32,716 nt of DNA from a virus (IMGVR_UViG_3300046804_004348:1-32716), one strand, 5' to 3'; positions 7,229 through 20,071 are shown, numbered from the stretch's first letter. The notes: a model not told the origin generated them from the letters alone. Made by a program: numbers and translations.

Positions 7229-8596
7229 TTATGCTACTTTCCAAAATTGTATGATACCGGTTTGAAATCCATCATATCCATTTACAGCTACTCCTTGTGG
7301 ATCATTTGCTATTGCCTGTAAGCCTATTCTAGTAGTGCCTGATAAAACTATTTGACCTGTACCATTAATTGTTGTGGTTGACACACTTACTTCAACAGCA
7401 GATATATTTTGCAAAGTAAAATTTGTATCCATATTCTGAAATCTTGTAAATACAGTAATAGGAATAATCACCTCTGGATCCACACCAGTTACTGGCAATG
7501 ATAAATTGTAAACATAGGTACCTGCTGGTAAATTAAAAGTATACCCTAATGGTCCTGAAAAATTAATTGTTGCACCTATGGTATTCCTTTCAAAAGTGTC
7601 AAATATAATCAGCTGCCATGCGTTAGATCCTATCCCTAAACCTCCACTACGCCTTGACATTATTACACTCGGAGCACTTGATGATCTTACAAACCCAACT
7701 GTTGCTACTTGTCCAGAAAATGTTCCATTTGGAGTTGGTGCTAGTGGTATACCAGTAAATATAGGACTAATTTTTTGATTTTGAACAAATTGTGTCGTAG
7801 CAAGTAGATTACTTCTGTCACTTGATACTTGAGTTGTGGCTGTAACATTGCCTACTAAACTTACGTTAGTAAACGTAACGTTTGAAGTATTTGCTTTTGT
7901 ATTCATAACCGACTGCACAAATGCAGTTGTTGCTATTGAATTATCAGATGTTGCAACATTAGTAATTGTTGGGGCTGTTGGTGTACCTGTAAAGTTAGGA
8001 CTATTTATATTTGCCTTTGTTGGCAAAATGTCGTTTAACAATCCTAATGGCACAGGTGCATTTATTGAAGCATCAAGTGTTATAAGAGGAACGGAAACAT
8101 TACCTGTAAGTGTAGGATTATTAGGAGATAATAATCCTGTTAACTGACTTCCGTTACCATAAAATGCATTAGCATAAACAACATTTGCTTCTACACGATT
8201 AGCAACTTGTATGTTTGCCAATGATTCAACTCTAGCTGCAATAAGACTTTCCGCTGTAACAGTACCTGACGCTGAAATACTTTTTGCTAATACCTCACTT
8301 GAATTTAATAAATTTAGTACATTTAAGTTGCCATTAATTTGTAGGTTAGATGAATTAGTATCAAATACAAAATTTCTGCTGCTAGATAGCTGATTTATGT
8401 TACTTGAAAATTGCACTGCACCAGGCACACCTGCAGCCGATGGATTTATAACAGTGATGTTTGTTACATTGGATCCTCTTCTTGCTGCAATGTCTGCCTG
8501 TGAGGCTGCAGTTTGAGCAGTTTGTGCTGCCTGTAACGCTGTATTAGCTGCAGTAATTGCTATTGTTGCTGCGGTATTTTCATTTATTGTTGCCAT
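7229..8596 (-). CDS. Tail-fibre protein with C-terminal jelly-roll-like domain, 455 aa
   Basis: Residues about 5-40 are alanine/glutamine-rich and look like a trimeric coiled-coil lead. They are followed by AGVPGAVQFSSN, the shared fibre module. The middle carries NAFYGNGSQLTGL and two 'FTGTPTAPT...IATTAFV' units, a well-known phage fibre repeat. The last 140 residues are different: non-repetitive, with NAWQLIIFDTFERN, then LPAGTYVYNLSLPV, and ending GIIQFWKVA. Their spacing resembles C1q/TNF-like jelly-roll heads on phage fibres, which is an inference from pattern only. The gene lies 9 bases after the 405-aa fibre gene and 13 before the 960-aa one. A receptor-binding head is a reasonable role. 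Confidence 0.76.
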   Translation of the reverse strand: MATINENTAATIAITAANTALQAAQTAQTAASQADIAARRGSNVTNITVINPSAAGVPGAVQFSSNINQLSSSRNFVFDTNSSNLQINGNLNVLNLLNSSEVLAKSISASGTVTAESLIAARVESLANIQVANRVEANVVYANAFYGNGSQLTGLLSPNNPTLTGNVSVPLITLDASINAPVPLGLLNDILPTKANINSPNFTGTPTAPTITNVATSDNSIATTAFVQSVMNTKANTSNVTFTNVSLVGNVTATTQVSSDRSNLLATTQFVQNQKISPIFTGIPLAPTPNGTFSGQVATVGFVRSSSAPSVIMSRRSGGLGIGSNAWQLIIFDTFERNTIGATINFSGPLGYTFNLPAGTYVYNLSLPVTGVDPEVIIPITVFTRFQNMDTNFTLQNISAVEVSVSTTTINGTGQIVLSGTTRIGLQAIANDPQGVAVNGYDGFQTGIIQFWKVA

Positions 8597-8605
8597 AATT
8601 TTAAA

Positions 8606-9823
8606 TTAGAATGATGATAGTGCTACACGTTTCCAGGTATTTGCTGCTGTACAGACATAAATGTAATTTGTATCCCAAACAATCATCCCTGGCAAGCCTG
8701 AAGAATTTCCTAACTTTGTAAATTGATTTTGTCTGAACGAACTTAAGACACTAAGGTTTATTAAATTAGCATTTGGTGCCGTAACAACTGATCCAACAAT
8801 TAAATTACCAGATACACCTATATTACCAGCCGTTGTGTTACCACAGAATATATTACCAATAATTAAATTACCAGGTAAACTGTTGATATTTCCAGTATTT
8901 GTAATCCCGTTAACTGTGAGATTGCCATTACTTTGTATTGTACCACCTATACTTAAATTACCAACTGCAGTTATATTACCTGCTGCTGAAATAACACCCG
9001 GTGTTCTTAAATTACCACCGGTTATATTACCTGTTGCAGTCATGCCTACCTGTGCAACAATGTTTTGAGCAGATAAAATATTACCAGTGACACTAAAATT
9101 GTTACCTGCTACTCCAGTAAAATTAGCAATACTGTCAGCTACAAATTTTGTAGTTGCTATTTGAGATCCATAGGCTCCAAAACTAGGTTGTGGTGCAACT
9201 GGTGTACCTGTGAACACCGGGCTATTAATTGGCGCTACTCCAAATAACGATGCTCCATTTCCAACAAAAGTACCAAATATATTACCTACTACAGATAGGT
9301 TTCCATTGATTATAGCATTACTAAACACCCCTAAATTAGCTATAGATGCGAATGTAATTGTTGCATTGCTTGCAGTAATATTGGAAGTGATTATATTTGC
9401 TATATTAGCTTGTTGTGAATTTACATTTCCTGCAATATTCAAGTTACCACTGGTAAACATTAGTGACGAACTTCCGGTAAAGCCATTGCCGGTGCCTGAA
9501 CTTAACTGAACTACTCCTGGTAAACCTGCTGGTACATTGGTAACACTTGTAAGAGTAATTGTGTTAGCAGTTCTTGCTTGTGTAGCATAAGTTAAGGCTA
9601 AAGTTGCTGAATTGGCTGAATTAAAAGAAAACTGCAATGAGTTAGCTGCTGCCTGACTCGCTCTATTTGCTGAAATCGCTGCATTAGATGCGAAGCCATT
9701 TGCACGATTTGCTTCTTGTTGTGAAATAACTGCTGCTATTCTTGCGCTTGCTGCAGAATTATTAGCTGCGGTAGCAAAGTTTGCTGCATCATTTACGAAT
9801 TGATATGGATCGGTTGTTGCCAT
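8606..9823 (-). CDS. Tail-fibre protein, 405 aa
   Basis: The N-terminus (about 90 residues) is rich in Ala, Asn and Ser with heptad-like spacing. It is followed by AGLPGVVQLSSG, the same junction module as in the neighbouring 455-aa protein. The central part has many GN[IL] repeats (ITAVGNLSIGGTIQSNGN) and one unit with FTGTPVAPQP and IATTKFV. The C-terminus reads IYVCTAANTWKRVALSSF. It closely resembles the end of the 341-aa fibre protein encoded at 27482-26457, pointing to a common terminal domain. The gene begins 21 bases after the nucleotidyltransferase gene and heads a run of fibre genes. Likely a virion fibre; partner and receptor are unknown. Confidence 0.77.
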   Translation of the reverse strand: MATTDPYQFVNDAANFATAANNSAASARIAAVISQQEANRANGFASNAAISANRASQAAANSLQFSFNSANSATLALTYATQARTANTITLTSVTNVPAGLPGVVQLSSGTGNGFTGSSSLMFTSGNLNIAGNVNSQQANIANIITSNITASNATITFASIANLGVFSNAIINGNLSVVGNIFGTFVGNGASLFGVAPINSPVFTGTPVAPQPSFGAYGSQIATTKFVADSIANFTGVAGNNFSVTGNILSAQNIVAQVGMTATGNITGGNLRTPGVISAAGNITAVGNLSIGGTIQSNGNLTVNGITNTGNINSLPGNLIIGNIFCGNTTAGNIGVSGNLIVGSVVTAPNANLINLSVLSSFRQNQFTKLGNSSGLPGMIVWDTNYIYVCTAANTWKRVALSSF

Positions 9824-9844: not shown

Positions 9845-11032
9845 TTATCTTAGTAAAGGAGGAATACCTGCTCTACTTACTTTACTCCCTAATTTTCTAG
9901 CATTATCTTTAATACTGTTAGGAGTAACATCAACAGTTAATGCTGTTTTAAATCTAGGATCATTTTTTTCTTTTTTACTGGGTATATACCCACTTACTTC
10001 GTTAACGTTGTATGTGGGATCAACCTTTTGACGCTTCATACCTTTAGGTTGATTAGGATCTAATGGGTCAATATCGGTTGTTGTTAACCCTGTTTTTTCT
10101 AAATTTTTAATATACTTGTGTTCCTCATCTTCACTACCAAATGAAAAAATAGTGCTGGGAGGACCTTTACCAAAATCATGTTTACCTAATCCGTCTAAAT
10201 TACTAATATGTTGACCTAACTTATACCAATCATAGACATCACTTACATCCACACGAACCGTGCCTTTAGGCATAGTAGGTTTAAATTCAGGTCCTGGCGG
10301 AGGTCCATTAGGATCATAATCTTCTGGTAAACTAAATTTTTCACTGTGCAATTGATTTAATTTACCATATAACTTAGCTATTATGCCTTTTGATCTTAAT
10401 GCTTTAAACGCTAAATTTTCTGGACCGAATTCACCATGAATATCTAATCCTGCTTGTCTATATTTTTTAATTGTTTTTATTAAAGTTTTAAGTCTTTTTT
10501 CATCATCGTGCTTTAAAGCTAGTTCAGCTAAATGTGCTAATTTATTAAATTTTAATTTGGTTGCAGCCTGATCTAAATTTGAACGATGCTTCTTTGGTAA
10601 TCTTAACCAATTATCATTTATTACTGAATATTCTCCTAAACTAATAACTGGTTGATTTGAATCTTGTACATATAATTCAACGTCATACCCGCCTATTTTT
10701 ATATCGTGTGTATCGTTGTAAATTGTTTTCTTTGCATCAAATAATTCACGGTACATTATGTCATCGTTCATTTTTTTCATATCAACTAAAATATGTAAAT
10801 CAATGTCGCTGTGTTTAGTATATGTGTATGCAGCATTAGAACCTGATAATGTAACATCTTCTATTTCTAAATGTGGGATACCCAAATGATCAATAAAATC
10901 TTCAGCAATCAAAATTAATTGATTCCTTACCTCAGGACGCATCTTATCTCCCAAAAAAATCACTGGATTTAGTTGGTCATGAAAAAATACTGCGTCATGC
11001 AGCTTAAAATTAGCTAATTCCTTAAGGTTCAT
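9845..11032 (-). CDS. Pol-beta-type nucleotidyltransferase, 395 aa
   Basis: The N-terminal domain has the nucleotidyltransferase signature: GSN at residues 64-66, then SDIDLHILVD with metal-ligand aspartates D76 and D78. A third acidic element is YDVELYV (D117/E119). A helical basic segment follows (about 140-210), then a proline-rich linker. The tail resembles a phage C-terminal motif: DPRFKTALTVDV, then SRAGIPPLLR. The substrate is unknown; RNA-end, protein or small-molecule nucleotidylation are all possible. The ATG at 11032 was chosen because the longer frame begins with TTG inside the promoter word just upstream. That choice leaves only four bases between CATAAATA and the ATG. The gene follows a strong terminator and precedes the fibre block, suggesting late expression. 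Confidence 0.75.
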   Translation of the reverse strand: MNLKELANFKLHDAVFFHDQLNPVIFLGDKMRPEVRNQLILIAEDFIDHLGIPHLEIEDVTLSGSNAAYTYTKHSDIDLHILVDMKKMNDDIMYRELFDAKKTIYNDTHDIKIGGYDVELYVQDSNQPVISLGEYSVINDNWLRLPKKHRSNLDQAATKLKFNKLAHLAELALKHDDEKRLKTLIKTIKKYRQAGLDIHGEFGPENLAFKALRSKGIIAKLYGKLNQLHSEKFSLPEDYDPNGPPPGPEFKPTMPKGTVRVDVSDVYDWYKLGQHISNLDGLGKHDFGKGPPSTIFSFGSEDEEHKYIKNLEKTGLTTTDIDPLDPNQPKGMKRQKVDPTYNVNEVSGYIPSKKEKNDPRFKTALTVDVTPNSIKDNARKLGSKVSRAGIPPLLR

Positions 11033-11036
11033 ACAG

Positions 11037-11044
11037 TATTTATG
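11037..11044 (-). promoter_or_regulatory. Late-promoter word CATAAATA
   Basis: CATAAATA on the minus strand lies directly after the intrinsic terminator and four bases before the nucleotidyltransferase ATG. If transcription begins about six bases after the last A, as in T4 late promoters, the mRNA would be leaderless or nearly so. A new promoter straight after a terminator is sensible. Confidence 0.55.
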
Positions 11045-11045
11045 C

Positions 11046-11078
11046 AAAAAGGGCTATAACAGTTTCCTGCTATAGCCC
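11046..11078 (-). terminator. Intrinsic terminator with GAAA tetraloop
   Basis: On the minus strand a 12-bp stem (GGGCTATAGCAG pairing with CTGTTATAGCCC, one G-U pair) closes a GAAA loop and is followed by five T residues. It lies 21 bases after the stop of the glycosyltransferase gene and ends that transcription unit. Confidence 0.9.
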
Positions 11079-11098
11079 TAAGTTTTAATTATTTAAAA

Positions 11099-12028
11099 TT
11101 ACGCTGTTTTTTTGGTTTTCTTGGTGGTTTTTGCTGAACCAACATCTACAGGAGCTGCTTGTTGCTGTGCTTGTTGTGCTGCTAAAGCCTGTTGTTCCTG
11201 AATATACATTGGTCCAATAGTATTCAATAGATGTTGTTGATTTTCCATACAGAATACATATGCACCACTGTGACGTAGTAAAACACGTTTATCGACGTAT
11301 ACTTTTCCACCTAAGTCACGCCAATTTTCACAGAAAGTCCAATCTTCGCTGTAATAGCGATTTTGGCGAACCGCGGTATCAAAATATGTTTTTAGATATT
11401 GATCGTACTTTGGATCAAGTCCAATGTCGTTTTTATACTGCTTAACTGCAGGATGAACATTTAACTTTTCAAATACATGTTTCTTCATAAGTAAGAAACC
11501 TGTACCTGCTTTACTCACTTCTTGTAATCCGTCTGGTCCCTCTTCTGCACCTTCGAATCCATTAACGACCCACTTGATCGGCATAGTCTTCATGGGATAT
11601 AGTCCACCAATAACGTCTTTGTCACGGTTAAGTAGTACTAGTAAATGCCATGGCTCCCAGCCAATGTCAGCATCAACAAAGAATAGATGAGTTGATTCCG
11701 GTTGATCTAAAAATTTTGCAGTAAGTGTATTACGTGCGCGGCTGATTAATGACTCATTAACCATTGTTTCAAGAGTCCAATCAATGCCTAACTGCCTTGC
11801 AGTGTTTGCCCATTTAATAAAACTCATGAAGGTAGATTCTGTTAGCATACCACCATAGCATGGCATAGCAATGTGTACGCGGGTAGTTTTTAAGAAGTCT
11901 ACATTAACTTGTACTTGATTTTGAGCAGGCGCTGCTGGAGCGTCTTGTTCTTGTATTTCTTGAATTGCTTCCTGAACCTGCTCTACAGGAACAGTAGCTT
12001 CTTCTTGTGCTTGTTTTTTCTTAGCCAT
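11099..12028 (-). CDS. GT-A-type glycosyltransferase, 309 aa
   Basis: After a 45-residue Glu/Gln/Ala-rich lead, the core starts VHIAMPCYGGMLTESTF. It contains NESLISRARNTLTAKFL, as in family-2-like glycosyltransferases, and then HLFFVDADIGW with a DxD metal/nucleotide-sugar motif (D119, D121). Further core segments are GGLYPMK, GTGFLLMKK and a later SEDWTFCENWRDLGG, where an acidic residue may serve catalysis. The C-terminus is a Gln/Ala-rich stretch ending in a lysine-rich tail (KTTKKTKKTA). The family transfers a sugar from a nucleotide sugar. The acceptor here could be DNA, a virion protein or a host glycan and cannot be read from sequence. It is the last gene before the GAAA-loop terminator, 51 bases after the adenylyltransferase gene. 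Confidence 0.75.
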   Translation of the reverse strand: MAKKKQAQEEATVPVEQVQEAIQEIQEQDAPAAPAQNQVQVNVDFLKTTRVHIAMPCYGGMLTESTFMSFIKWANTARQLGIDWTLETMVNESLISRARNTLTAKFLDQPESTHLFFVDADIGWEPWHLLVLLNRDKDVIGGLYPMKTMPIKWVVNGFEGAEEGPDGLQEVSKAGTGFLLMKKHVFEKLNVHPAVKQYKNDIGLDPKYDQYLKTYFDTAVRQNRYYSEDWTFCENWRDLGGKVYVDKRVLLRHSGAYVFCMENQQHLLNTIGPMYIQEQQALAAQQAQQQAAPVDVGSAKTTKKTKKTA

Positions 12029-12052
12029 TTTATCCTCATGAAAATGTAATAT

Positions 12053-12060
12053 TATTTACA
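12053..12060 (-). promoter_or_regulatory. Weak possible late promoter TGTAAATA
   Basis: TGTAAATA on the minus strand lies 24 bases before the glycosyltransferase ATG, the same spacing as clearer sites elsewhere. It differs from GATAAATA at two positions, so it is only a candidate. Confidence 0.25.
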
Positions 12061-12079
12061 CGTTTATAGAACGGTTAAA

Positions 12080-13357
12080 TTATTTTTCGTCTATATAATC
12101 TGTATTATTTGCTTGTTCAGGGAAAACTTGTTTATAAAGATCGGTTAATTCCTCGTCACTAGCTAAGCTTAAATCGCTTACATCATAATCAGTCGCTTTT
12201 GCTAAACGATGGATCATTGTCTTACGCATACCGTAATCCATTGAATGACGCTTAGAGAGATTAAATGGTTCTTCTGCTTCCGACACACCTTCATTTTTCT
12301 TTCTTCCCGCACAGTGAGCCTTTTGGCTAAAACCTTTTGGATGACTACAATCAATGCTACGCTTGTATTTTTTACTCCACTTTTCATCTAACTGTTCTTC
12401 ATCTTCATTATCTTCGTAACTTTCAAGTTGATCCATAGCACCCTTAAAACCGTCAATTTCAAAGAATGATCTCATTGTTCTATTGTCAATTATACAAGTA
12501 GGTATATCATCTTCCATAGCCCATTCAATTGCTTCTTTTTCTGCCTCGTCTAAATCACCGGTTGTTAATATTGCCCGTCTTGTTTCTAAATTAAAAACTG
12601 TATAACGATCTTCCTTTCGTCCATATTCTGTTAATGACTCTTTTAATAATTTTAATACTTTTAATTTTTGTTGTGCATTTGCTTCTTTAAGCATTGGGCG
12701 AACACGCTGAATGAATTCTTTTATTTTTGCTTTTTTAGTTGCTGGTTTAAACTGACCCATACGTTGACTTGCTTTCTGCATTAATGCTAACACTTCTTTA
12801 TCGCTAAGTGCGTCTGGCATAGCATCTCGCCACACTGCAAACTTTTGTTCATCACTTGCGTTCGGATCTTTAAGAATTTCACGCATTGGAGTTGCCCTTG
12901 GCCCCTCCTCACTTTGTGCTGCATCATCAACGTCTTGGCGTTTTATAACACTAAGATTTTCTAATCCTAATGTTTTATAAACTATATTACCTGCTTTATC
13001 TTGCCCAACCAAATATTGAAACGCTTTAACTTGATCAGCTCCAACTACTAACACTGCATTCTTGTAACCTAATTCAGCAAGTGTTCTCATTAGTCTATTG
13101 ATATCGGGTATATCGTCTGTTGCACTTTGAAATATGTTTGCATGTTTAGGAAAAACTTTCTTATAGATATATAATTTTTCTTCTGGATATAATGGATCGT
13201 CTGCACCAACTGTTCTACTAACAAAGAAATATGGATCAGCTCCCATATTCTGTGCTTGAATAATTACTGCTCTAGCCAATAGCATGTGACCTTTGTGACC
13301 CATACCACGACCCCATCCTACTACCGCTGTATCACTTTTTCCTGTACGTTGTATCAT
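12080..13357 (-). CDS. HxGH nucleotidylyltransferase (NMN/FMN adenylyltransferase-like) with C-terminal tag, 425 aa
   Basis: The first 150 residues follow the cytidylyltransferase-like Rossmann pattern. Strand one runs into GRGMGHKGHMLLAR with the HxGH motif at 21-24. Then come DPYFFVSRTVGADDPLYPEEK, FPKHANIF and VLVVGADQVKAF, and a GPRATPMREIL segment where the family's ISxxxxR motif is expected. Such enzymes condense ATP or CTP with a phosphorylated partner; NMN and pantetheine phosphate are typical. The substrate here is unproven. A charged helical middle leads to a C-terminal CSHPKGFSQKAHCAGRKK motif with closely spaced Cys and His, which I associate with several marine phage proteins. 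ATG 13357 was chosen over an in-frame TTG at 13375 because it overlaps the previous stop as ATGA. Confidence 0.7.
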   Translation of the reverse strand: MIQRTGKSDTAVVGWGRGMGHKGHMLLARAVIIQAQNMGADPYFFVSRTVGADDPLYPEEKLYIYKKVFPKHANIFQSATDDIPDINRLMRTLAELGYKNAVLVVGADQVKAFQYLVGQDKAGNIVYKTLGLENLSVIKRQDVDDAAQSEEGPRATPMREILKDPNASDEQKFAVWRDAMPDALSDKEVLALMQKASQRMGQFKPATKKAKIKEFIQRVRPMLKEANAQQKLKVLKLLKESLTEYGRKEDRYTVFNLETRRAILTTGDLDEAEKEAIEWAMEDDIPTCIIDNRTMRSFFEIDGFKGAMDQLESYEDNEDEEQLDEKWSKKYKRSIDCSHPKGFSQKAHCAGRKKNEGVSEAEEPFNLSKRHSMDYGMRKTMIHRLAKATDYDVSDLSLASDEELTDLYKQVFPEQANNTDYIDEK

Positions 13358-14502
13358 AATTTTCTCGGTTGCCAATTAAGTTGATCTATTAATTTTAGAA
13401 ACTGTCCGGGTAATGCATACTTAAAATTAATTTCAGGATGTGCTTGTGCGTATCCTTCTGGTTTGGTTTGCATAATACCACCATGTAGTCCTAAACTTAA
13501 TGATTTAATCACTTTCATTTTTTCATTAGTTATGGCTTCTACTGCGCCTAGCGTTGCTTTAAGTCCTTCAGGATCAGATAATAATGTTTGTGCTTTTTTT
13601 GCACTTAAATTTTGTTGTGCCCAAGCAGGAAAATCTTTTAATAATCCTGATGTACGCAAATGTTGATTTAAATAGTTATACAATTCCCCACCTGGATTAT
13701 TCATACCAGGCTTTGGACTTAAGAAATTATCTATTTTTTGTGAATTAGCTTGAATAAATCTACTTAAGTTTTCTAGTCCTAATTTATCTACACCAGGTAA
13801 TTCTTCTGCATATGTAGTACCTTGTACAATAGTATCTTTAGTTGATAATTGTTCTGCATTGGGTAATCTGCTTTCTTCATTACTTCCTATCTTATCATAA
13901 TAACCAGTTGCAGCAATCATTACTTTTGCAGTTGAAATTCTTTGCCCCAATTGACTGTCGATAGGAACATGAAACGTAGTTATATTAGGTTTAAAATCAT
14001 ATGTGTTTGTCCGTTTATTTACTACTGGCATCGCACTTTGACCGTCTGGTTTTGTGCCAGGATAAAATAGTAAACCACCTTCTAAGAAGCCACGTTTAGG
14101 ACTTGCTTGTTCTAAATAAGGCCATAAACTTGCGAATTGTTTTGCAAATTGCATACGACTAGCATCAGCTTCGCCGCCTGTACCTAATATAAATTTCATA
14201 ACATCATCAGGACTTTTTGTTAGAGTAGAAGCTCCTGCTTTTGTTTGCATAGTACCTGATTTCAAGTATTGCCATGCATTTTTTGGTATCATATAAAAAG
14301 TACCACTCTCATCTCTACCCCAATACACAACAGGCATGCCATCCCACTTTAATTCAATGGAGCCATAGTTATCAACCATGTCGTCCAATCGTTCTATGGC
14401 GTGCATAGCGCCATGACTACCGTTAGCTATTACTAGGTCCTCAATATGTTGATATTTACGACCTACTTGGCCTGCTGCCTCTAGTAATGCAGTTATTCTC
14501 AT
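13354..14502 (-). CDS. DUF6267-like protein with ligase-type KWDG motif, 382 aa
   Basis: I recognise the pattern of a conserved T4-like phage family (DUF6267 by memory). Its landmarks are HIEDLVIANGSHGAMHAIE near the start, then IELKWDGMPVVYWG (K52-W-D-G), RGFLEGGLLFYPG (E141) and FKPNITTFHVP (170-180). KxDG followed by an EGG element and a later FKPN..T segment is the layout expected of ATP-dependent nucleotidyltransferases: K as adenylation site, then motif III/IV. No ligase activity is established, so this is an inference. The ATG at 14502 overlaps the previous stop as ATGA; the longer frame to 14532 lacks such support. It lies between two other nucleotidyltransferase-type genes, with an ATGA overlap at both ends. 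Confidence 0.62.
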   Translation of the reverse strand: MRITALLEAAGQVGRKYQHIEDLVIANGSHGAMHAIERLDDMVDNYGSIELKWDGMPVVYWGRDESGTFYMIPKNAWQYLKSGTMQTKAGASTLTKSPDDVMKFILGTGGEADASRMQFAKQFASLWPYLEQASPKRGFLEGGLLFYPGTKPDGQSAMPVVNKRTNTYDFKPNITTFHVPIDSQLGQRISTAKVMIAATGYYDKIGSNEESRLPNAEQLSTKDTIVQGTTYAEELPGVDKLGLENLSRFIQANSQKIDNFLSPKPGMNNPGGELYNYLNQHLRTSGLLKDFPAWAQQNLSAKKAQTLLSDPEGLKATLGAVEAITNEKMKVIKSLSLGLHGGIMQTKPEGYAQAHPEINFKYALPGQFLKLIDQLNWQPRKL

Positions 14503-15236
14503 TTTAATAAATCCATTGTACGACGGAACCAACTACGTACATCTTCATTTAATTCTATGTTTGGTGCCCATTTATCTTTAATAGCATTAAATTTTTCTGG
14601 ATTACTTCTTAATGCCATTAAAATTGAATGCACACTTCCCATATCTTCTGCAGTTGCTTGAGGTCCAATAATTATTTTTGCAATTTGATCTTTGTTACTT
14701 GTAATCAATTCCTTAGTTTCGCGGTCTACTAATCCTTTATATGGACTCATCATCAAACTAGGATGATCAGGTAATGAACTCATGTTAGTTAAATCAGCCC
14801 ATATACCATGTAGTGTTCCGCCCTTCATAGTTGGATCTTTACTATAATCGTGACTGTGTAATGGAACAACATCTCTTGCATTTTCTACAGCCATAATATC
14901 AACTTGTGTTACATTACCATCTTCACCAGTGGGTATACCTACATGTACACTAACTCCAGTACGGGCAGCAAAATATCCGTTTTCTTTAAAGTAATTTTCT
15001 AACCCTTGTCTAGCAGTTTTTAAATCTTTTACTGGAAATACTTTCATCAACTCTGCTGCATCAATCAGTACATCCATATCACTGCTGACATCTTTTTTAC
15101 CTGCACTGCCTATAGGATATGCAGTAATACCTTTAGGCATTATTCCTTGCAGATTTTTAACTACAGTCTGCACATTTTTACGTGTTATTGGTTTAGCGTC
15201 AGGGACAACGTTGCCACCTTCTGAAATTATTGACAT
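14499..15236 (-). CDS. Pol-beta-type nucleotidyltransferase, 245 aa
   Basis: The fold signature is clear: PIGSAGKKDVSSDMDVLID carries GS (43-44) and DxD (D53, D55). The third carboxylate is in VTQVDIMAVE (D113). Residues 115-245 are less typical, with HSHDYSKDPTMKGGTLHGIW and a helical end. The family transfers NMP to a hydroxyl group on RNA, protein or a small molecule. The substrate is not readable here. It is the second enzyme of this fold in the window, but sequence similarity to the 395-aa one seems confined to the motif. It starts in a one-base TAATG overlap with the 112-aa gene and ends in an ATGA overlap with the KWDG ligase-like gene, so the three are very likely co-translated. Confidence 0.74.
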   Translation of the reverse strand: MSIISEGGNVVPDAKPITRKNVQTVVKNLQGIMPKGITAYPIGSAGKKDVSSDMDVLIDAAELMKVFPVKDLKTARQGLENYFKENGYFAARTGVSVHVGIPTGEDGNVTQVDIMAVENARDVVPLHSHDYSKDPTMKGGTLHGIWADLTNMSSLPDHPSLMMSPYKGLVDRETKELITSNKDQIAKIIIGPQATAEDMGSVHSILMALRSNPEKFNAIKDKWAPNIELNEDVRSWFRRTMDLLK

Positions 15237-15574
15237 TAGTAACTTACCTTTACTGATTGGATAACTCCGTTAGTGAAATTGGTAATGTTTACCCTAAGCC
15301 AAACAAAGTTACCTGATAAATTATAAAAACCTAATTCTGTAGTTGAACTAGGACTGAGTGTGTAAACATTAAACCAATCATTATTGTTTGGATTCTCTGA
15401 TAAGCTTGCTTGTATAACTATGGTTGCAGATACATTTGTCAAATTCCATGTCAGAGTTTGTAGGTCGCTTTTGCCTAAATAATAGCTGGCTGCGGGCTGT
15501 TTTTCCCCTATAATATTTGGTCCTAATCCAAAAGGAGTTTGAGACAATAAGATGAGTGTGGTGGCCTGTGACAT
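15236..15574 (-). CDS. Small beta-rich probable virion protein, 112 aa
   Basis: Not recognised as a named family. The sequence is beta-rich with alternating hydrophobic residues, such as SATIVIQASLSENP, DWFNVYTLSP and NFVWLRVNITNF, and it has no charge clusters or membrane segments. This looks like a small jelly-roll or carbohydrate-binding-like module of a structural protein. It sits between the 55-aa gene and the nucleotidyltransferase, with TAATG overlaps on both sides, downstream of a GATAAATA promoter. A virion role is inferred from the late-type promoter and composition only. Confidence 0.55.
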   Translation of the reverse strand: MSQATTLILLSQTPFGLGPNIIGEKQPAASYYLGKSDLQTLTWNLTNVSATIVIQASLSENPNNNDWFNVYTLSPSSTTELGFYNLSGNFVWLRVNITNFTNGVIQSVKVSY

Positions 15575-15741
15575 TATGCTTGCATCACTTCCACAACAAC
15601 AGAGTTGCCGACTAATTCTTGAACTACTTGCTCTAACGCTGCTTGTACCTCAGAGCTAGCGATTCCGGATTCTACCGTATCACTGTCCTTGACAATCTTG
15701 CTTAATTTAATAACTAGTACATCTTCTACGATTTTTGCCAT
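15574..15741 (-). CDS. Conserved-looking 55-aa phage protein
   Basis: The frame runs from ATG 15741 to TAA 15574 and encodes a 55-residue protein beginning MAKIVEDVLVIKLSKIVKDS and ending VVVEVMQA. Evidence for a real gene: the stop overlaps the next ATG as TAATG, the start lies 22 bases after a GATAAATA word, and the sequence has an amphipathic helix (SSEVQAALEQVVQELVG) between two strands. I recall very similar small proteins in marine T4-like phages but no function. It probably leads the late enzyme cassette. Confidence 0.7.
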   Translation of the reverse strand: MAKIVEDVLVIKLSKIVKDSDTVESGIASSEVQAALEQVVQELVGNSVVVEVMQA

Positions 15742-15743
15742 GG

Positions 15744-15769
15744 TAAATACTCCATTAATAGAGTATTTA
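15744..15769. repeat. 9-bp inverted repeat overlapping the promoter of the 55-aa gene
   Basis: TAAATACTC at 15744-15752 is repeated exactly inverted (GAGTATTTA) at 15761-15769, with an 8-base spacer. The distal arm overlaps the GATAAATA word and the proximal arm abuts the ATG. It could be an operator, or a hairpin that hides the ribosome site in the leader. Confidence 0.7.
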
Positions 15770-15771
15770 TC
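15764..15771 (-). promoter_or_regulatory. Late promoter GATAAATA
   Basis: GATAAATA on the minus strand, 22 bases before the ATG of the 55-aa gene and between two transcription units. It has the same word and nearly the same spacing as the site before the 697-aa fibre gene. Confidence 0.68.
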
Positions 15772-15778
15772 AAAAAAG

Positions 15779-16435
15779 CTATCGCTGTTCTACTTTATAG
15801 GTTTTCCCTAAATAATTGCCAAAATTAAGAGAAAGTATGGATAAAAAGGATTCATCGTCATAATCTATGAAAAAACAAGCTTCCAAATAACGCTGTCTCC
15901 AAGTATAACTGTTTTTAAGTTCAAGCCATTTTTGTAAACTGGGTGTTGGGAAGGCTGAATTTTTATATTGCTTAAGGAATTGTTCTACCTCCCTATTAAA
16001 TCCCTCTGGCACTGTCTTACTACGAAAGTATGTTCTATATTTGTGTTTTGGATTATATCGTAATAATACCCCAACCGTACCTTCTACTTCAACCTCAGTA
16101 TAATCTACTTGAGTTTGAGATAGTTCTTCAATTGATTGTACTACCTTTAAATCATTACTGTAAACACTTACGCAATTATAGTCAACTCTTACTGTCGATT
16201 GTGATTCATTAACAGTATTACGCCAGTTCATAAGTTTTAATAAAAAATCCTTATTGATACCTGATCCATAAAAACTTGATCTACCATAGCTTTCACGTAG
16301 AGCAATAGCCTTGTCTAAATCTTTTTCAGTTTTTGCGTACCTAATTAGGTTGCAATCTGGATATGATAATGACGATTTATATTTGTATTTGTCGTAGTAT
16401 AACCTTGATTTTGTTACTTTTTTAAATTTATTCAA
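15779..16435 (-). CDS. Conserved T4-like phage protein of unknown function, 218 aa
   Basis: Function not recognised. The protein is rich in Tyr, Lys and Arg, and its middle reads MNWRNTVNESQSTVRVDYN, then VSVYSNDLKVVQSIEEL and KHKYRTYFRSKTVP. It ends FFIDYDDESFLSILSL and YLGKTYKVEQR. I associate this pattern with a family common in marine T4-like phages. There is no membrane segment. The start is TTG at 16435, overlapping the end of the clpA-like gene by 8 bases, with GGAG nine bases upstream. No ATG is available nearby. As the third gene of the dnaJ-clpA operon it may be an adaptor or substrate of the chaperone machine; that is only context. Confidence 0.65.
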   Translation of the reverse strand: MNKFKKVTKSRLYYDKYKYKSSLSYPDCNLIRYAKTEKDLDKAIALRESYGRSSFYGSGINKDFLLKLMNWRNTVNESQSTVRVDYNCVSVYSNDLKVVQSIEELSQTQVDYTEVEVEGTVGVLLRYNPKHKYRTYFRSKTVPEGFNREVEQFLKQYKNSAFPTPSLQKWLELKNSYTWRQRYLEACFFIDYDDESFLSILSLNFGNYLGKTYKVEQR

Positions 16436-18701
16436 CTGTAATTACTCCATCGTATCCTACAAAAGCAGTTACTTTTGGTGTAACTACAAAATCAATTTGT
16501 TCATCTTTCATAACAGCGAATATATTACTATTTTTTACGTTATCAAAAACTATTTTCTTTGATAAAGGTACACGAATAAGTTCATCAATCTTACGTGCCA
16601 AAGGTCTAGCACCCATTTTGCTATCGTAACCAACTTCTGCTAGATAATCAACAACCGGCTCACTCAAATTAAGTGTTATATCATGCGCAGTTTTAATTGA
16701 TTTTTTAAGTTCATCAACAAATTTAACTACAATCTTTTTAATTGCCAATTTATCAAGTTTATTAAATTTGCAAATTAAGTCAATTCTGTTTCTAAATTCT
16801 GGTTTAAAAAATTCTTTCATTGCACGTTCATCTTCACCAGTTTTTTCTTGACTACCAAATCCAATAGTATTACGTTCGCTATCACTTGCACCTAAATTAC
16901 TGGTCATGATAATTATACAGTTCTTTGCATTTACTTCTTTACTATTACTTCCTGTGACACGACCTTCATCAAGTAATTGTAAAAAAATATCAAATACTTC
17001 TGGATGTGCCTTTTCAACTTCATCAAACAATAATATTGAATATGGATTCTTACTTAGGTCATTTATGAGTTTACCTCCCCCTAAGCTTCCTTCACCATAA
17101 CCAACATAACCAGGAGGCGCGCCAATTAATTTAGCAACGCTATGCTTTTCACCGTACTCACTCATATCATATTTGAGAAGTGGCATGTCAAGATTTTTAC
17201 TAAGCAACTTAGCAAGTTCAGTTTTACCTGTACCAGTTGGACCTAAGAATAAGAAACTACCAACTGGTTTAGTTTCATTATTAATACCAGCAAAGCTTAC
17301 ATAAACTCGTTCAAGGACTTTATTTACAGCATCATCTTGTCCATACAGCTTATCTTTTACATTTTGTTCAAGATTTTTTACACGATCACTAAAATCATTA
17401 CTTAACTTATCTGCAGGAACGCCTGTAAATCGTTCAACTTGTTCGTAGATAAGTTCTTTAGTAATTTCAGCTTCTTTGTTTTCTAACACTCGCTGTTTTG
17501 CACAAGCTGCATCTAATAAATCAATTGATTTGTCAGGATTTTTTCTGTCATGAATATAACGTGCAGAACAATCTACACTTGCTTCTATAGCCTCTTCAGT
17601 TATTTTTACATTGTGAAAATCATTAAGGCGTTGACTTAAACCGCGTAAAATACGAATAGTGCTATCGTGGCTAGGTTCATCAATGCCAACACGATAGAAT
17701 CTTCTCATTAATGCACGATCTTTTTCAAAACTCTCGTAATACTCTTCCCATGTTGTACTTGCGATAATCTTTAAAGTACCTTTAGTAATAGCAGGTTTTA
17801 TCATGCTTGCAAAATCAATGCTACCGTTATTAGTATTGCCACTACCCTTCATTGTATGTGCTTCATCAATGAATAGAATTGCTTTTTTCTTTGTGTTGAG
17901 TGCATCAATGATATTTTTAATCTTTTCTTCAAAGTCACCTCGATACTTACTCCCTGCGAGTAACATACCAACTTCAAGACTGTACAATTCATGATCTTTC
18001 AGAAATTCAGGTACTGTACCGTCTACAATCATAGTTGCAAGACCTTCTGCAATAGCGGTTTTACCTACACCAGGATCACCTACCATCAATACATTACTCT
18101 TAAATCGTTTAGCAAGTACATTAATAATATCATTAAGTTCAGTGCTACGACCAATTAACGGTTCTAGTTTGCCGTCTATTGCCATTTTTGTTAAATTTAT
18201 TGTAAATTCATCAAGTATTTCATTTGCTTGACTGTCAGTTAAGTTACCTGAATATTCAGCACCTTTATATGTTTTTTGCCAGTGAGGAACAAATTCATTT
18301 TTTGTCATACCGTATTTTAACAAGAAATAATGTGCGTGACTATTATTTTCGCTCATTATGCTTAAGTATAGGTCTACTGTGGTAACGTTTTTTCTTCCAG
18401 TGAATAACACTTGAGTTACACTACGATTAATAACACGCTCTAAACTATTAGTTTTTTTAGGATGAACTTCTTGTCCTTGGTCAATACTCAATACTATTGA
18501 TTTAAGGCTATCCAAATATGCTGTTAGTTCTTTTGATAAATTATCTACATCAATACCAAATTGCTCAGAGCATTTTTTGAATGGTGTGTGTTTCATCAAT
18601 GCGAGTAATAGATGTTCTACTGTGCAATATTCATGGCATTTGTCTTTTGCAATGATTATAGCCTGTTCAATGATTGATTCAATTTCTACAGAACTGTTCA
18701 A
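16428..18701 (-). CDS. clpA: ClpA-like AAA+ protein unfoldase, 757 aa
   Basis: Full-length two-ring Clp/Hsp100 ATPase. Residues 1-145 form the Clp N-domain (HEYCTVEHLLLALMKHTP). AAA-1 has Walker A GDPGVGKT (208-215) and Walker B ILFIDEAH (276-283), with RALMRRF near the arginine finger. AAA-2 has GPTGTGKT (487-494), ILLFDEVE (556-563) and FFKPEFRNRID. There is no long middle coiled coil, so it resembles ClpA (E. coli 758 aa) rather than ClpB. An IGF tripeptide (613-615) sits where ClpA carries its ClpP-docking IGL loop. The start is TTG at 18701, one base after the dnaJ stop, with AAGGA at good spacing; the N-terminal alignment to ClpA supports it. It unfolds proteins with ATP in the cytoplasm, perhaps feeding host ClpP. 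Confidence 0.93.
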   Translation of the reverse strand: MNSSVEIESIIEQAIIIAKDKCHEYCTVEHLLLALMKHTPFKKCSEQFGIDVDNLSKELTAYLDSLKSIVLSIDQGQEVHPKKTNSLERVINRSVTQVLFTGRKNVTTVDLYLSIMSENNSHAHYFLLKYGMTKNEFVPHWQKTYKGAEYSGNLTDSQANEILDEFTINLTKMAIDGKLEPLIGRSTELNDIINVLAKRFKSNVLMVGDPGVGKTAIAEGLATMIVDGTVPEFLKDHELYSLEVGMLLAGSKYRGDFEEKIKNIIDALNTKKKAILFIDEAHTMKGSGNTNNGSIDFASMIKPAITKGTLKIIASTTWEEYYESFEKDRALMRRFYRVGIDEPSHDSTIRILRGLSQRLNDFHNVKITEEAIEASVDCSARYIHDRKNPDKSIDLLDAACAKQRVLENKEAEITKELIYEQVERFTGVPADKLSNDFSDRVKNLEQNVKDKLYGQDDAVNKVLERVYVSFAGINNETKPVGSFLFLGPTGTGKTELAKLLSKNLDMPLLKYDMSEYGEKHSVAKLIGAPPGYVGYGEGSLGGGKLINDLSKNPYSILLFDEVEKAHPEVFDIFLQLLDEGRVTGSNSKEVNAKNCIIIMTSNLGASDSERNTIGFGSQEKTGEDERAMKEFFKPEFRNRIDLICKFNKLDKLAIKKIVVKFVDELKKSIKTAHDITLNLSEPVVDYLAEVGYDSKMGARPLARKIDELIRVPLSKKIVFDNVKNSNIFAVMKDEQIDFVVTPKVTAFVGYDGVITVE

Positions 18702-18702
18702 T

Positions 18703-19500
18703 TTAGTTTCCTTTATTTTTTGATTTCAAAATACTAATAATAACGTCATTGTCTATATTATCAGATACGAATGGTTTAATCAATAACAATTGGTCTCCAT
18801 TATACTGACCGTTTGTAAGACCTTGCCCTGTAATACGTAATGTGGTATTTGGTTGTGTTTTAGGTTTAATAGATACGTTAAATGTTTTACCTGAGATAGT
18901 TTGAAAATCAATAGTCGTTCCAATTATCAAATCTAATACATCGACTTCAATTTCACTTGTCAAGTTTAATCCATTTCTTTGAAATTTAGGATGATCATAT
19001 ATTCTAAATTCTACAATAAGCACTCCGTTTGGAATTAAATTATCATAACGTAACTGTTGTCCGTTTTCTATTCCCTTAGGTATGTCTATTCTAACACTAT
19101 GAGGTCCTGTATTCGTATTAAAATTTAATGTTTGTTGATCACCATTGTAAACTTGTTCAAGTGTTAATGTTACAATAGTTTTATATGTAGGCGCATGATG
19201 ACGATGTCCAAACATTTGACCAAATATATCATCTATATTCATATGTCCTGTTTGGAAACTAAACCCTCCTGGAAAACCACTAAATGAAAATCCTCCACCA
19301 GGGAAACCTCCCCTAGGCATATCGTATTCATTCTTTTTCTGAGGATCGCTTAGTGTTTCGTAAGCAGATTGTATTTCCTGAAACCTAGCAGTATCACCAC
19401 CCTTGTCTGGGTGATGAATACTTGCTAGTCTTTTATAGGCTTGACGAATTTCGTCAGGTGATGCATTTTGATCAATGCCGAGTGTTTTGTAATGGTCCAT
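18703..19500 (-). CDS. dnaJ: DnaJ/CbpA-type Hsp40 co-chaperone, 265 aa
   Basis: The J domain spans about residues 3-60, with the essential HPD motif at 30-32 (HHPDKGGD). A Gly/Phe-rich linker follows (GGFPGGGFSFSGF). The C-terminal substrate-binding region starts YKTIVTLTLEQVYNG and includes a FNVSIKPKTQPN stretch and RITGQGL. The cysteine-rich zinc-finger domain of classical DnaJ is missing, so this is a type-II (CbpA-like) Hsp40, and shorter than the 306-residue CbpA. J proteins stimulate DnaK ATPase and deliver clients; the host DnaK is the expected partner. It is first in a three-gene operon with clpA and the 218-aa gene, behind a sigma70-like promoter. Confidence 0.92.
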   Translation of the reverse strand: MDHYKTLGIDQNASPDEIRQAYKRLASIHHPDKGGDTARFQEIQSAYETLSDPQKKNEYDMPRGGFPGGGFSFSGFPGGFSFQTGHMNIDDIFGQMFGHRHHAPTYKTIVTLTLEQVYNGDQQTLNFNTNTGPHSVRIDIPKGIENGQQLRYDNLIPNGVLIVEFRIYDHPKFQRNGLNLTSEIEVDVLDLIIGTTIDFQTISGKTFNVSIKPKTQPNTTLRITGQGLTNGQYNGDQLLLIKPFVSDNIDNDVIISILKSKNKGN

Positions 19501-19543: not shown

Positions 19544-20071
19544 TTACGCTGCTCCAGCTACTTTTTCTTTTGTGCGACCGTATGCTGCGATACCTAGAAC
19601 TGCACCCATTGCAATATGATATAAACCTGCACCTTGTAATGTCAATGGTTGCCACTGACTTGTCACTTGACCATTACTCAATGCTTGTAATAATGACCAA
19701 AGTATTGGAAATACTACAAAGTCTGCAGTACAAGTCATCATATACACCCAACCCATAACTGGACGCCATTTTTTGTTAATCCAATCTGTAGCATCTTTAT
19801 CTAGTGCTACTGTTGATTCACCACCTTCACTCATTGCGCCGCCGCCACTCTTTAGTGACTCTCCTTGATTTTGTACAATTTGTACATTATTATTTGGCAT
19901 ACTTGCTCCTGTATTCATAAATGCAGGCGATGCTTGTGCTGGTGCACCAAAACTACTACCTGCGGGTATTTGGCTAATTGTTGGATCATTCGCCATTGCT
20001 GTATGATGTTCATCATTTGAACCAAATGGATTTTCTCCATTTGCTTTTCTTGCTAATAATGTTGTTCCCAT
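19544..20071 (-). CDS. Probable holin (three-TM type), 175 aa
   Basis: The N-terminal 85 residues are polar, rich in Asn, Ser, Gly and Ala, and probably disordered. Residues about 90-175 contain NKKWRPVMGWVYMMTCTADF, then VVFPILWSLLQAL and LYHIAMGAVLGIAAYGRTKEK. The W-R-P motif before the first hydrophobic helix, the acidic ADF in it, and a last helix ending in RTKEK match the '3TM holin' type known from gene-transfer agents and marine phages. A holin opens the inner membrane so the endolysin (here at 30295-29678) can reach the wall. A GGAG sequence precedes the ATG. It is last in a unit with the 209-aa and 180-aa genes. Confidence 0.68.
   Translation of the reverse strand: MGTTLLARKANGENPFGSNDEHHTAMANDPTISQIPAGSSFGAPAQASPAFMNTGASMPNNNVQIVQNQGESLKSGGGAMSEGGESTVALDKDATDWINKKWRPVMGWVYMMTCTADFVVFPILWSLLQALSNGQVTSQWQPLTLQGAGLYHIAMGAVLGIAAYGRTKEKVAGAA

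Follow-up and report, generated by a model that had tools for sequence, protein, structure and literature searches.

A conserved late three-gene unit of aquatic T4-like phages links a Pol X-fold nucleotidyltransferase, a ligase-like protein and an HxGH nucleotidylyltransferase that may be packaged in the capsid

In bacteriophage T4, the internal proteins and Alt enter the head by way of a short leader, which gp21 cleaves off after L/I-X-E; for IPIII, residues 4 and 7 are important in targeting, and residues 8 and 10 in processing (PMC9026906). The locus described here resembles the T4 IPI-IPIII/Alt system in its short N-terminal leaders, with hydrophobic residues near positions 4, 7 and 8 and an (L/I)xE cut, in its late expression, and in the gp21-type protease encoded in the genomes of its relatives. 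It differs in its cargo: whereas T4 packs an ADP-ribosyltransferase or nuclease inhibitors, the candidate cargo here is a fused or operonic set of polymerase-like, ligase-like and adenylyltransferase proteins. A second precedent is the virion-associated NMNAT/cytidylyltransferase of cyanophages S-CREM2, S-SZBM1, S-SCSM1 and S-CBWM1, which belongs to the family that we call HIGH and is present in purified virions (family identity was checked here for the first three). In those phages the enzyme was reported alone and a regulation of NAD levels was suggested, whereas here it forms part of a three-enzyme unit with leaders.

The window, that is, the whole stretch of DNA analyzed, represents 32.7 kb of a T4-like phage genome, and the initial annotation had recognized in it, by their motifs, genes for two Pol beta-type nucleotidyltransferases, a KWDG ligase-like protein, an HxGH adenylyltransferase-like protein and a GT-A glycosyltransferase. 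All five open reading frames and their motifs are indeed present, on the minus strand at 9845-15236, with tail-fibre genes on one side and a tandem AAA+ gene on the other; from upstream to downstream they are named PB1, KWDG, HIGH, GT and PB2. The listed starts of KWDG, HIGH and PB2 had been placed too far upstream; in-frame ATGs lie at 14502, 13357 and 11032, respectively, and with the former two the ATGA overlaps described among the first three enzymes hold. The start of PB1 shares 1 bp with the preceding gene, which opens the unit and encodes a 112-aa protein of cluster c4 (15236-15574, minus strand). In other relatives its place is taken by cluster c5, with the leader MRIQELLE/N (here and below a slash marks the putative cleavage site).

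Relatives were gathered from viral contigs, profiles were built and gene order was mapped, giving 81 loci after removal of duplicates, 72 of which were evaluable, with no contig end interrupting them on the side that matters. PB1, KWDG and HIGH occur together in 70 of these 72 distinct loci, a figure that describes this group and not all phages, since the genes themselves served as queries when the loci were gathered. The three are contiguous separate genes in 38 cases and are interrupted by an inserted gene in 5; a further 23 loci carry PB1-KWDG fusions and 4 carry KWDG-HIGH fusions. The two exceptions, L109 and L111, have no recognizable PB1 upstream of KWDG by gene order. That KWDG is naturally fused to a partner on either side argues strongly for one function, and we have little doubt that PB1, KWDG and HIGH, which also share an operon, act together. 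A bacterial origin of the genes was considered and was not supported, as a search of genome contigs returned two short MAG contigs only, and PADLOC matched the cassette enzymes only weakly.

The opening gene of the unit is preceded by GATAAATA, a late-promoter element at 15764-15771 (minus strand), 536 bp upstream of PB1, recognized by pattern search and by its conserved position in relatives. Among the 73 relatives with enough upstream sequence, 67 carry NATAAATA within 1.3 kb upstream of PB1, and nearly all of these matches read GATAAATA and lie at -370 to -590, just before the small opening gene. Given this near-constant distance and an overall same-strand density of 0.23 per kb, the element is not there by chance, so the late promoter proposed initially is conserved and late expression is supported. 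The location among fibre and lysis genes, which had been considered unexpected for early RNA-repair or NAD-salvage genes, is likewise correct for the window's clade (fibres at 7229-9823, holin at 19544-20071), but it is not a fixed property of the family, since many cyanophages have a replication-cluster location. The DUF6267-HIGH pair (DUF6267 being the Pfam family of KWDG) is common in cyanophages, often in the replication cluster beside gp41, mazG or nrdA, and PB1 was not detected in the cyanophages that have this pair. The tandem AAA+ protein (16428-18701, minus strand; PHROG 4871, 'ATP-dependent protease') is the upstream neighbor in 73 of the 81 loci and is tied to the unit by association only. 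Before its gene sits that of a cluster c1 protein whose N-terminus resembles DnaJ (window 18703-19500), and this AAA+/DnaJ-like chaperone pair may serve the same process as the cassette. Many relatives, above all those in which PB1 and KWDG are fused, have a peptide deformylase gene directly upstream of the AAA+ gene (for example L057:2998-3525).

PB1 (14499-15236, minus strand) is, judging from its modeled fold, a Pol X/Pol beta-fold nucleotidyltransferase with predicted polymerase-type activity. It carries GSAGKKDVSSDMDV with D53 and D55, and D113 is the third invariant Asp of the alignment. The PB1 part of a model of the natural PB1-KWDG fusion L069 (54 sequences, mean pLDDT 88) matches DNA polymerases lambda and beta (Foldseek E 1.3e-6), and in a PDB fold search it aligned with Pol lambda at Z 12.3 over 173 residues and with ASFV Pol X at Z 11.9 over 163/178 residues, thus spanning almost the whole of the latter fold. 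All the hallmarks of family X, namely the fold, the GS motif and the three catalytic Asp residues, are therefore found in PB1. Unlike ASFV Pol X, to which it has no significant sequence similarity, the phage enzyme has KWDG as a fused or coupled partner, and its polymerase role is a predicted one; a search of PDB chains by sequence with the PB1 profile returned nothing meaningful.

KWDG (13354-14502, minus strand) matches Pfam DUF6267 (E 3e-13), a family present in no fewer than 322 phage genome records, the majority from marine cyanophages. Its motifs KWDG (ORF residues 62-65), EGGLLF, PEGYA and FLKLID follow one another as do motifs I, III, IV and V of the ligase/capping superfamily and of T4 RNA ligase 1, and the alignment invariants, H29, D32, KWDG 62-65, a GG/GD motif III, EG 359-360 and K380, keep the same order. 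T4 Rnl1 also has EG(F/Y)V..G..(F/L)K(L/I) across motifs IV-V in common with KWDG, a local similarity that is not significant. Comparisons by hhalign with T4 Rnl1, Rnl2 and DNA ligase were not significant (E about 0.02 for Rnl1), and the Rnl1-Rnl2 positive control was equally weak; since the motif order is present and the profile similarity is not significant, we call the protein ligase-like rather than a ligase, an identity that rests on motif order. The KWDG profile found nothing meaningful among PDB chains by sequence, and the PDB matches listed for the PB1-KWDG fusion model all fell to its PB1 part. In BFVD, an 'RNA ligase' of Atu_ph07 matches the fusion model (E 2e-3), and a 'cytidyltransferase-like' protein of S-PM2 aligns to it over ~415 columns, which suggests a further KWDG-HIGH fusion, this time in a cyanophage. 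KWDG departs from T4 RNA ligase 1 in that DUF6267 is its only Pfam family and in being late and probably packaged, and no paired 5' kinase/3' phosphatase, as in T4 Pnkp-Rnl1 repair, was found among the proteins scanned in the 32.7-kb fragment. Motif III, which is QGD in cyanophages, reads EGG in the window's branch, with another residue in place of the acidic one, as might be expected if these were structural core proteins of enzyme descent that had lost catalysis. We regard that as extremely unlikely, however, for the three Asp residues of PB1, the K/EG/K of KWDG and the GxGH/R of HIGH vary little or not at all in the alignments.

HIGH (12080-13357, minus strand; PHROG 3041, 'cytidyltransferase') has the motifs GMGHKGH and RATPMR and a fold like that of PPAT, NadD and NMNAT, and so combines the GxxPxxGH/HxGH and (S/T)xxxR motifs with the alpha/beta fold of the HxGH family. 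Cyanophage and Melnitz members score above the cut-off for Pfam CTP_transf_like. Searching PDB chains by sequence with the HIGH profile gave nothing meaningful and plain Foldseek gave no match under E 0.001; VIA-align recovered PPAT, NadD and NMNAT at Z 9.1 over 153-162 residues, with tied scores, so the fold does not choose among their substrates. The HIGH of the window (ORF 12080-13375) also contains a Cys module, CSHPKGFSQKAHCAGRKK, at ORF residues 338-360, which recalls the CWxGYxxKGTKxxxGKxVPNC modules of cyanophage hypothetical proteins, some of them detected in virions.

The remaining two genes are accessories of the window's clade, restricted to a subgroup. GT (11099-12028, minus strand; PHROG 1574) is a GT-A-like protein with a DAD motif whose only Pfam match, to Anp1, is sub-threshold (E 0.004). 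PB2 (9845-11032, minus strand; PHROG 36119) is an MNT-type Pol beta nucleotidyltransferase with GS..DID, sub-threshold Polbeta/NTP_transf_2 Pfam matches and MntA-type adenylyltransferases as its nearest, weakly matching, relatives; neither PHROG has an annotated function. The initial annotation had considered that all five genes might form one pathway and had asked whether their order is conserved in relatives. This applies to the operonic and naturally fused PB1-KWDG-HIGH unit, but a single five-gene pathway is not borne out, as 22 of the 81 loci have GT and PB2 is restricted to a subgroup, and in S-CREM2 PB2 adjoins HIGH, with neither PB1 nor KWDG next to them. The same count bears on a sugar or lipid nucleotide pathway, in which HIGH would be a cytidylyltransferase of the CDP-alditol type feeding GT for the decoration of fibres, capsid or DNA. 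Although HIGH is annotated as a cytidyltransferase and GT comes after it in the window's clade, GT is missing from most loci and the fused partners PB1 and KWDG would be left unexplained, which makes this pathway very unlikely. The C-terminal 50 residues of PB2 (window 9845-11047) read SGYIPS..NDPRFKTALTVDVxP and are common to a deaminase-like protein and a DNA primase; the tail also occurs at L112:13248-13877 and L007:15070-16062 and looks like a mobile C-terminal module. PB2 matches in L112, L117, L118 and L128 were rejected as consisting only of this tail, and its candidacy as a virion-sorting signal was dropped given its presence on the primase and the deaminase-like protein.

Measured against the leaders of T4-type internal proteins (~7-19 residues ending in (L/I)xE), KWDG and many HIGH proteins carry such a leader and PB1 carries a short form; the counts that follow are drawn from related, non-independent sequences. 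KWDG starts with MRITALLE/AAG in the window and with, for example, MKIKEFITE/AAAP or MRASEFLTE/AVS in relatives, and all 35 distinct KWDG leaders have L or I at P3, E at P1 and A or S at P1', with P2 and the rest varying. A gp21-type site is kept inside the linker of 16/16 PB1-KWDG fusions. The PB1 leader (MSIISE/GGN in the window) is shorter than those of T4; PB1 starts end in hydrophobic-x-E/GGN in 41 of 41 cases, with L, I, V or F at P3, and the EGGN could be structural. Both sites of the L069 fusion model fall within low-confidence stretches (8-16 and 242-254) that are probably disordered. A positional regular expression modeled on IPIII matches T4 IPII, IPIII and Alt and 1 of 21 other T4 genes; it also matches 27 of 45 cyanophage-type HIGH proteins versus 26 of 449 other ORFs there (Fisher 2.5e-18, ignoring relatedness), and none of 39 PB1 leaders, which are short. 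In the window's group an N-terminal leader is found on 36 HIGH proteins and an internal KIKEFIQRVRPMLKE/A on 13, the window's included, with none having both. The window's own HIGH thus has no N-terminal leader, and its internal element (12680-12727, minus strand; ORF residues 217-232, after the catalytic domain) is a putative targeting signal. Leaders are also borne by the neighboring families c5, c11, c12 and c23 and by none of the fibre and holin families. Of four large relatives, three encode Peptidase_S77 and Gp23; in the window, a fragment, a gp21-type protease was not seen.

Virion mass spectrometry by others covers homologues of HIGH (at least three cyanophages) and PB2 (one), and not PB1 or KWDG. 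In S-CREM2 virions gp154 and gp156 were found (PMC10665884), which we identify as HIGH (E 3e-35) and PB2 (E 6e-67) family members, respectively; S-SZBM1_140 (PMC9146016) and S-SCSM1 ORF91 (PMC9602691), found in purified virions in the same manner, are both of the HIGH family according to our check. All three virion-detected HIGH proteins start with leaders (MKNFSSFLTE/A, MRFRQFIIE/A and MKSFLQFLKE/A). DUF6267 is absent from the S-CREM2 (PMC10665884) and S-SZBM1 (PMC9146016) virion lists, and the S-SZBM1 copy starts with MAKNTHLEH and has no leader. Across S-CREM2, the pre-set leader pattern was not significantly associated with virion detection (5/41 versus 5/74, p 0.25); a looser pattern gave p 0.04. 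Leaders, gp21-type sites and published detection of the HIGH and PB2 families support the virion-borne character initially suggested, and the leader-bearing versions are probably packaged. In S-CREM2 (L182) the virion-detected SAM hydrolase and APH-like kinase start with MKDFDSFLEE and MKRFDAFLTE, and the virion Cas9-like protein has FASFMAEA near residue 20 (L182: 3837-5081, 10579-12846 and 7704-10313); the same leader may mark other injected enzymes. Five consecutive S-SCSM1 genes around the HIGH homologue, ORF89-ORF93 (L140:36358-41836), carry annotations as virion proteins based on mass spectrometry, which suggests a larger locus of internal proteins.

These data also bear on whether the trio might instead be late, soluble and unpackaged, serving tRNA/RNA repair or NAD maintenance, with an N-terminal helix that merely resembles a capsid-targeting leader. 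Carry-over after CsCl was considered possible by the authors of two of the proteomes (one that of S-SCSM1, PMC9602691), the P-HM1 copies of both proteins of the DUF6267-HIGH pair have no leaders, and a conserved late promoter would also suit soluble enzymes. On the other hand, a cleavage-type site persists in every fusion linker, where a leader is unneeded, no HIGH protein of the window's group has both the N-terminal and the internal element, and leader-bearing HIGH has been detected in virions repeatedly, so that we find a soluble set rather improbable.

We therefore favor, with modest confidence, the view that PB1, KWDG and HIGH constitute a late, capsid-packaged and ejected enzyme kit, most likely for damaged nucleic-acid ends. 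Late transcription from GATAAATA would yield the trio during head assembly, and the N-terminal leader, or the internal element in the window's HIGH, would bind the prohead core. The gp21-type protease would then cut after (L/I)xE and release the enzymes, in the fusions parting PB1 from KWDG, and the trio would be ejected with the DNA and work at once, ahead of phage gene expression. There, PB1 could fill or add nucleotides at ends, KWDG could activate and seal them via a lysine-nucleotide intermediate, and HIGH could make or recycle a nucleotide cofactor, NAD-type or adenylylated. When a Pol X fold is fused to a ligase-like protein, the simplest interpretation would be that ends are filled and sealed; taken by itself, the assignment of nucleic-acid ends as the trio's substrate is tentative, at somewhat below even chance.

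The same packaging evidence would serve an effector, injected like T4 Alt, that modifies, through nucleotidylation or otherwise, RNA ends or host proteins, for example the transcription machinery, and so aids takeover. Alt itself is a precedent for a modifying enzyme with a capsid-targeting sequence, MNT-type enzymes are known to AMPylate proteins, and PB2 is nearest to MntA-type adenylyltransferases, albeit by a weak match. Yet the best fold matches of PB1 are template-using Pol X polymerases and not protein-modifying enzymes, and the motifs of KWDG are ligase-like; an effector role is thus unlikely.

A more specific and distinctly doubtful form of the packaged enzyme kit would be a ligation machine with its own cofactor recycling, in which KWDG would seal in an NAD-dependent manner, HIGH would convert the released NMN and ATP back to NAD, and PB1 would fill or extend the ends; the invariant H29..D32 of KWDG, which shortly precedes motif I, might accommodate the NMN half. 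Were it true, such a machine would serve to repair the incoming genome or host RNAs cleaved by defence systems, and would resist defences that drain NAD.

Taken together, the fusion of DUF6267, a family with no assigned function, to a Pol X-fold enzyme and to an 'NMNAT' detected in virions suggests a testable role for it. Many aquatic T4-like phages carry this late three-gene set, and if its leaders work as they do in T4, they would provide a sequence rule that predicts which enzymes these abundant phages inject at the very start of infection.
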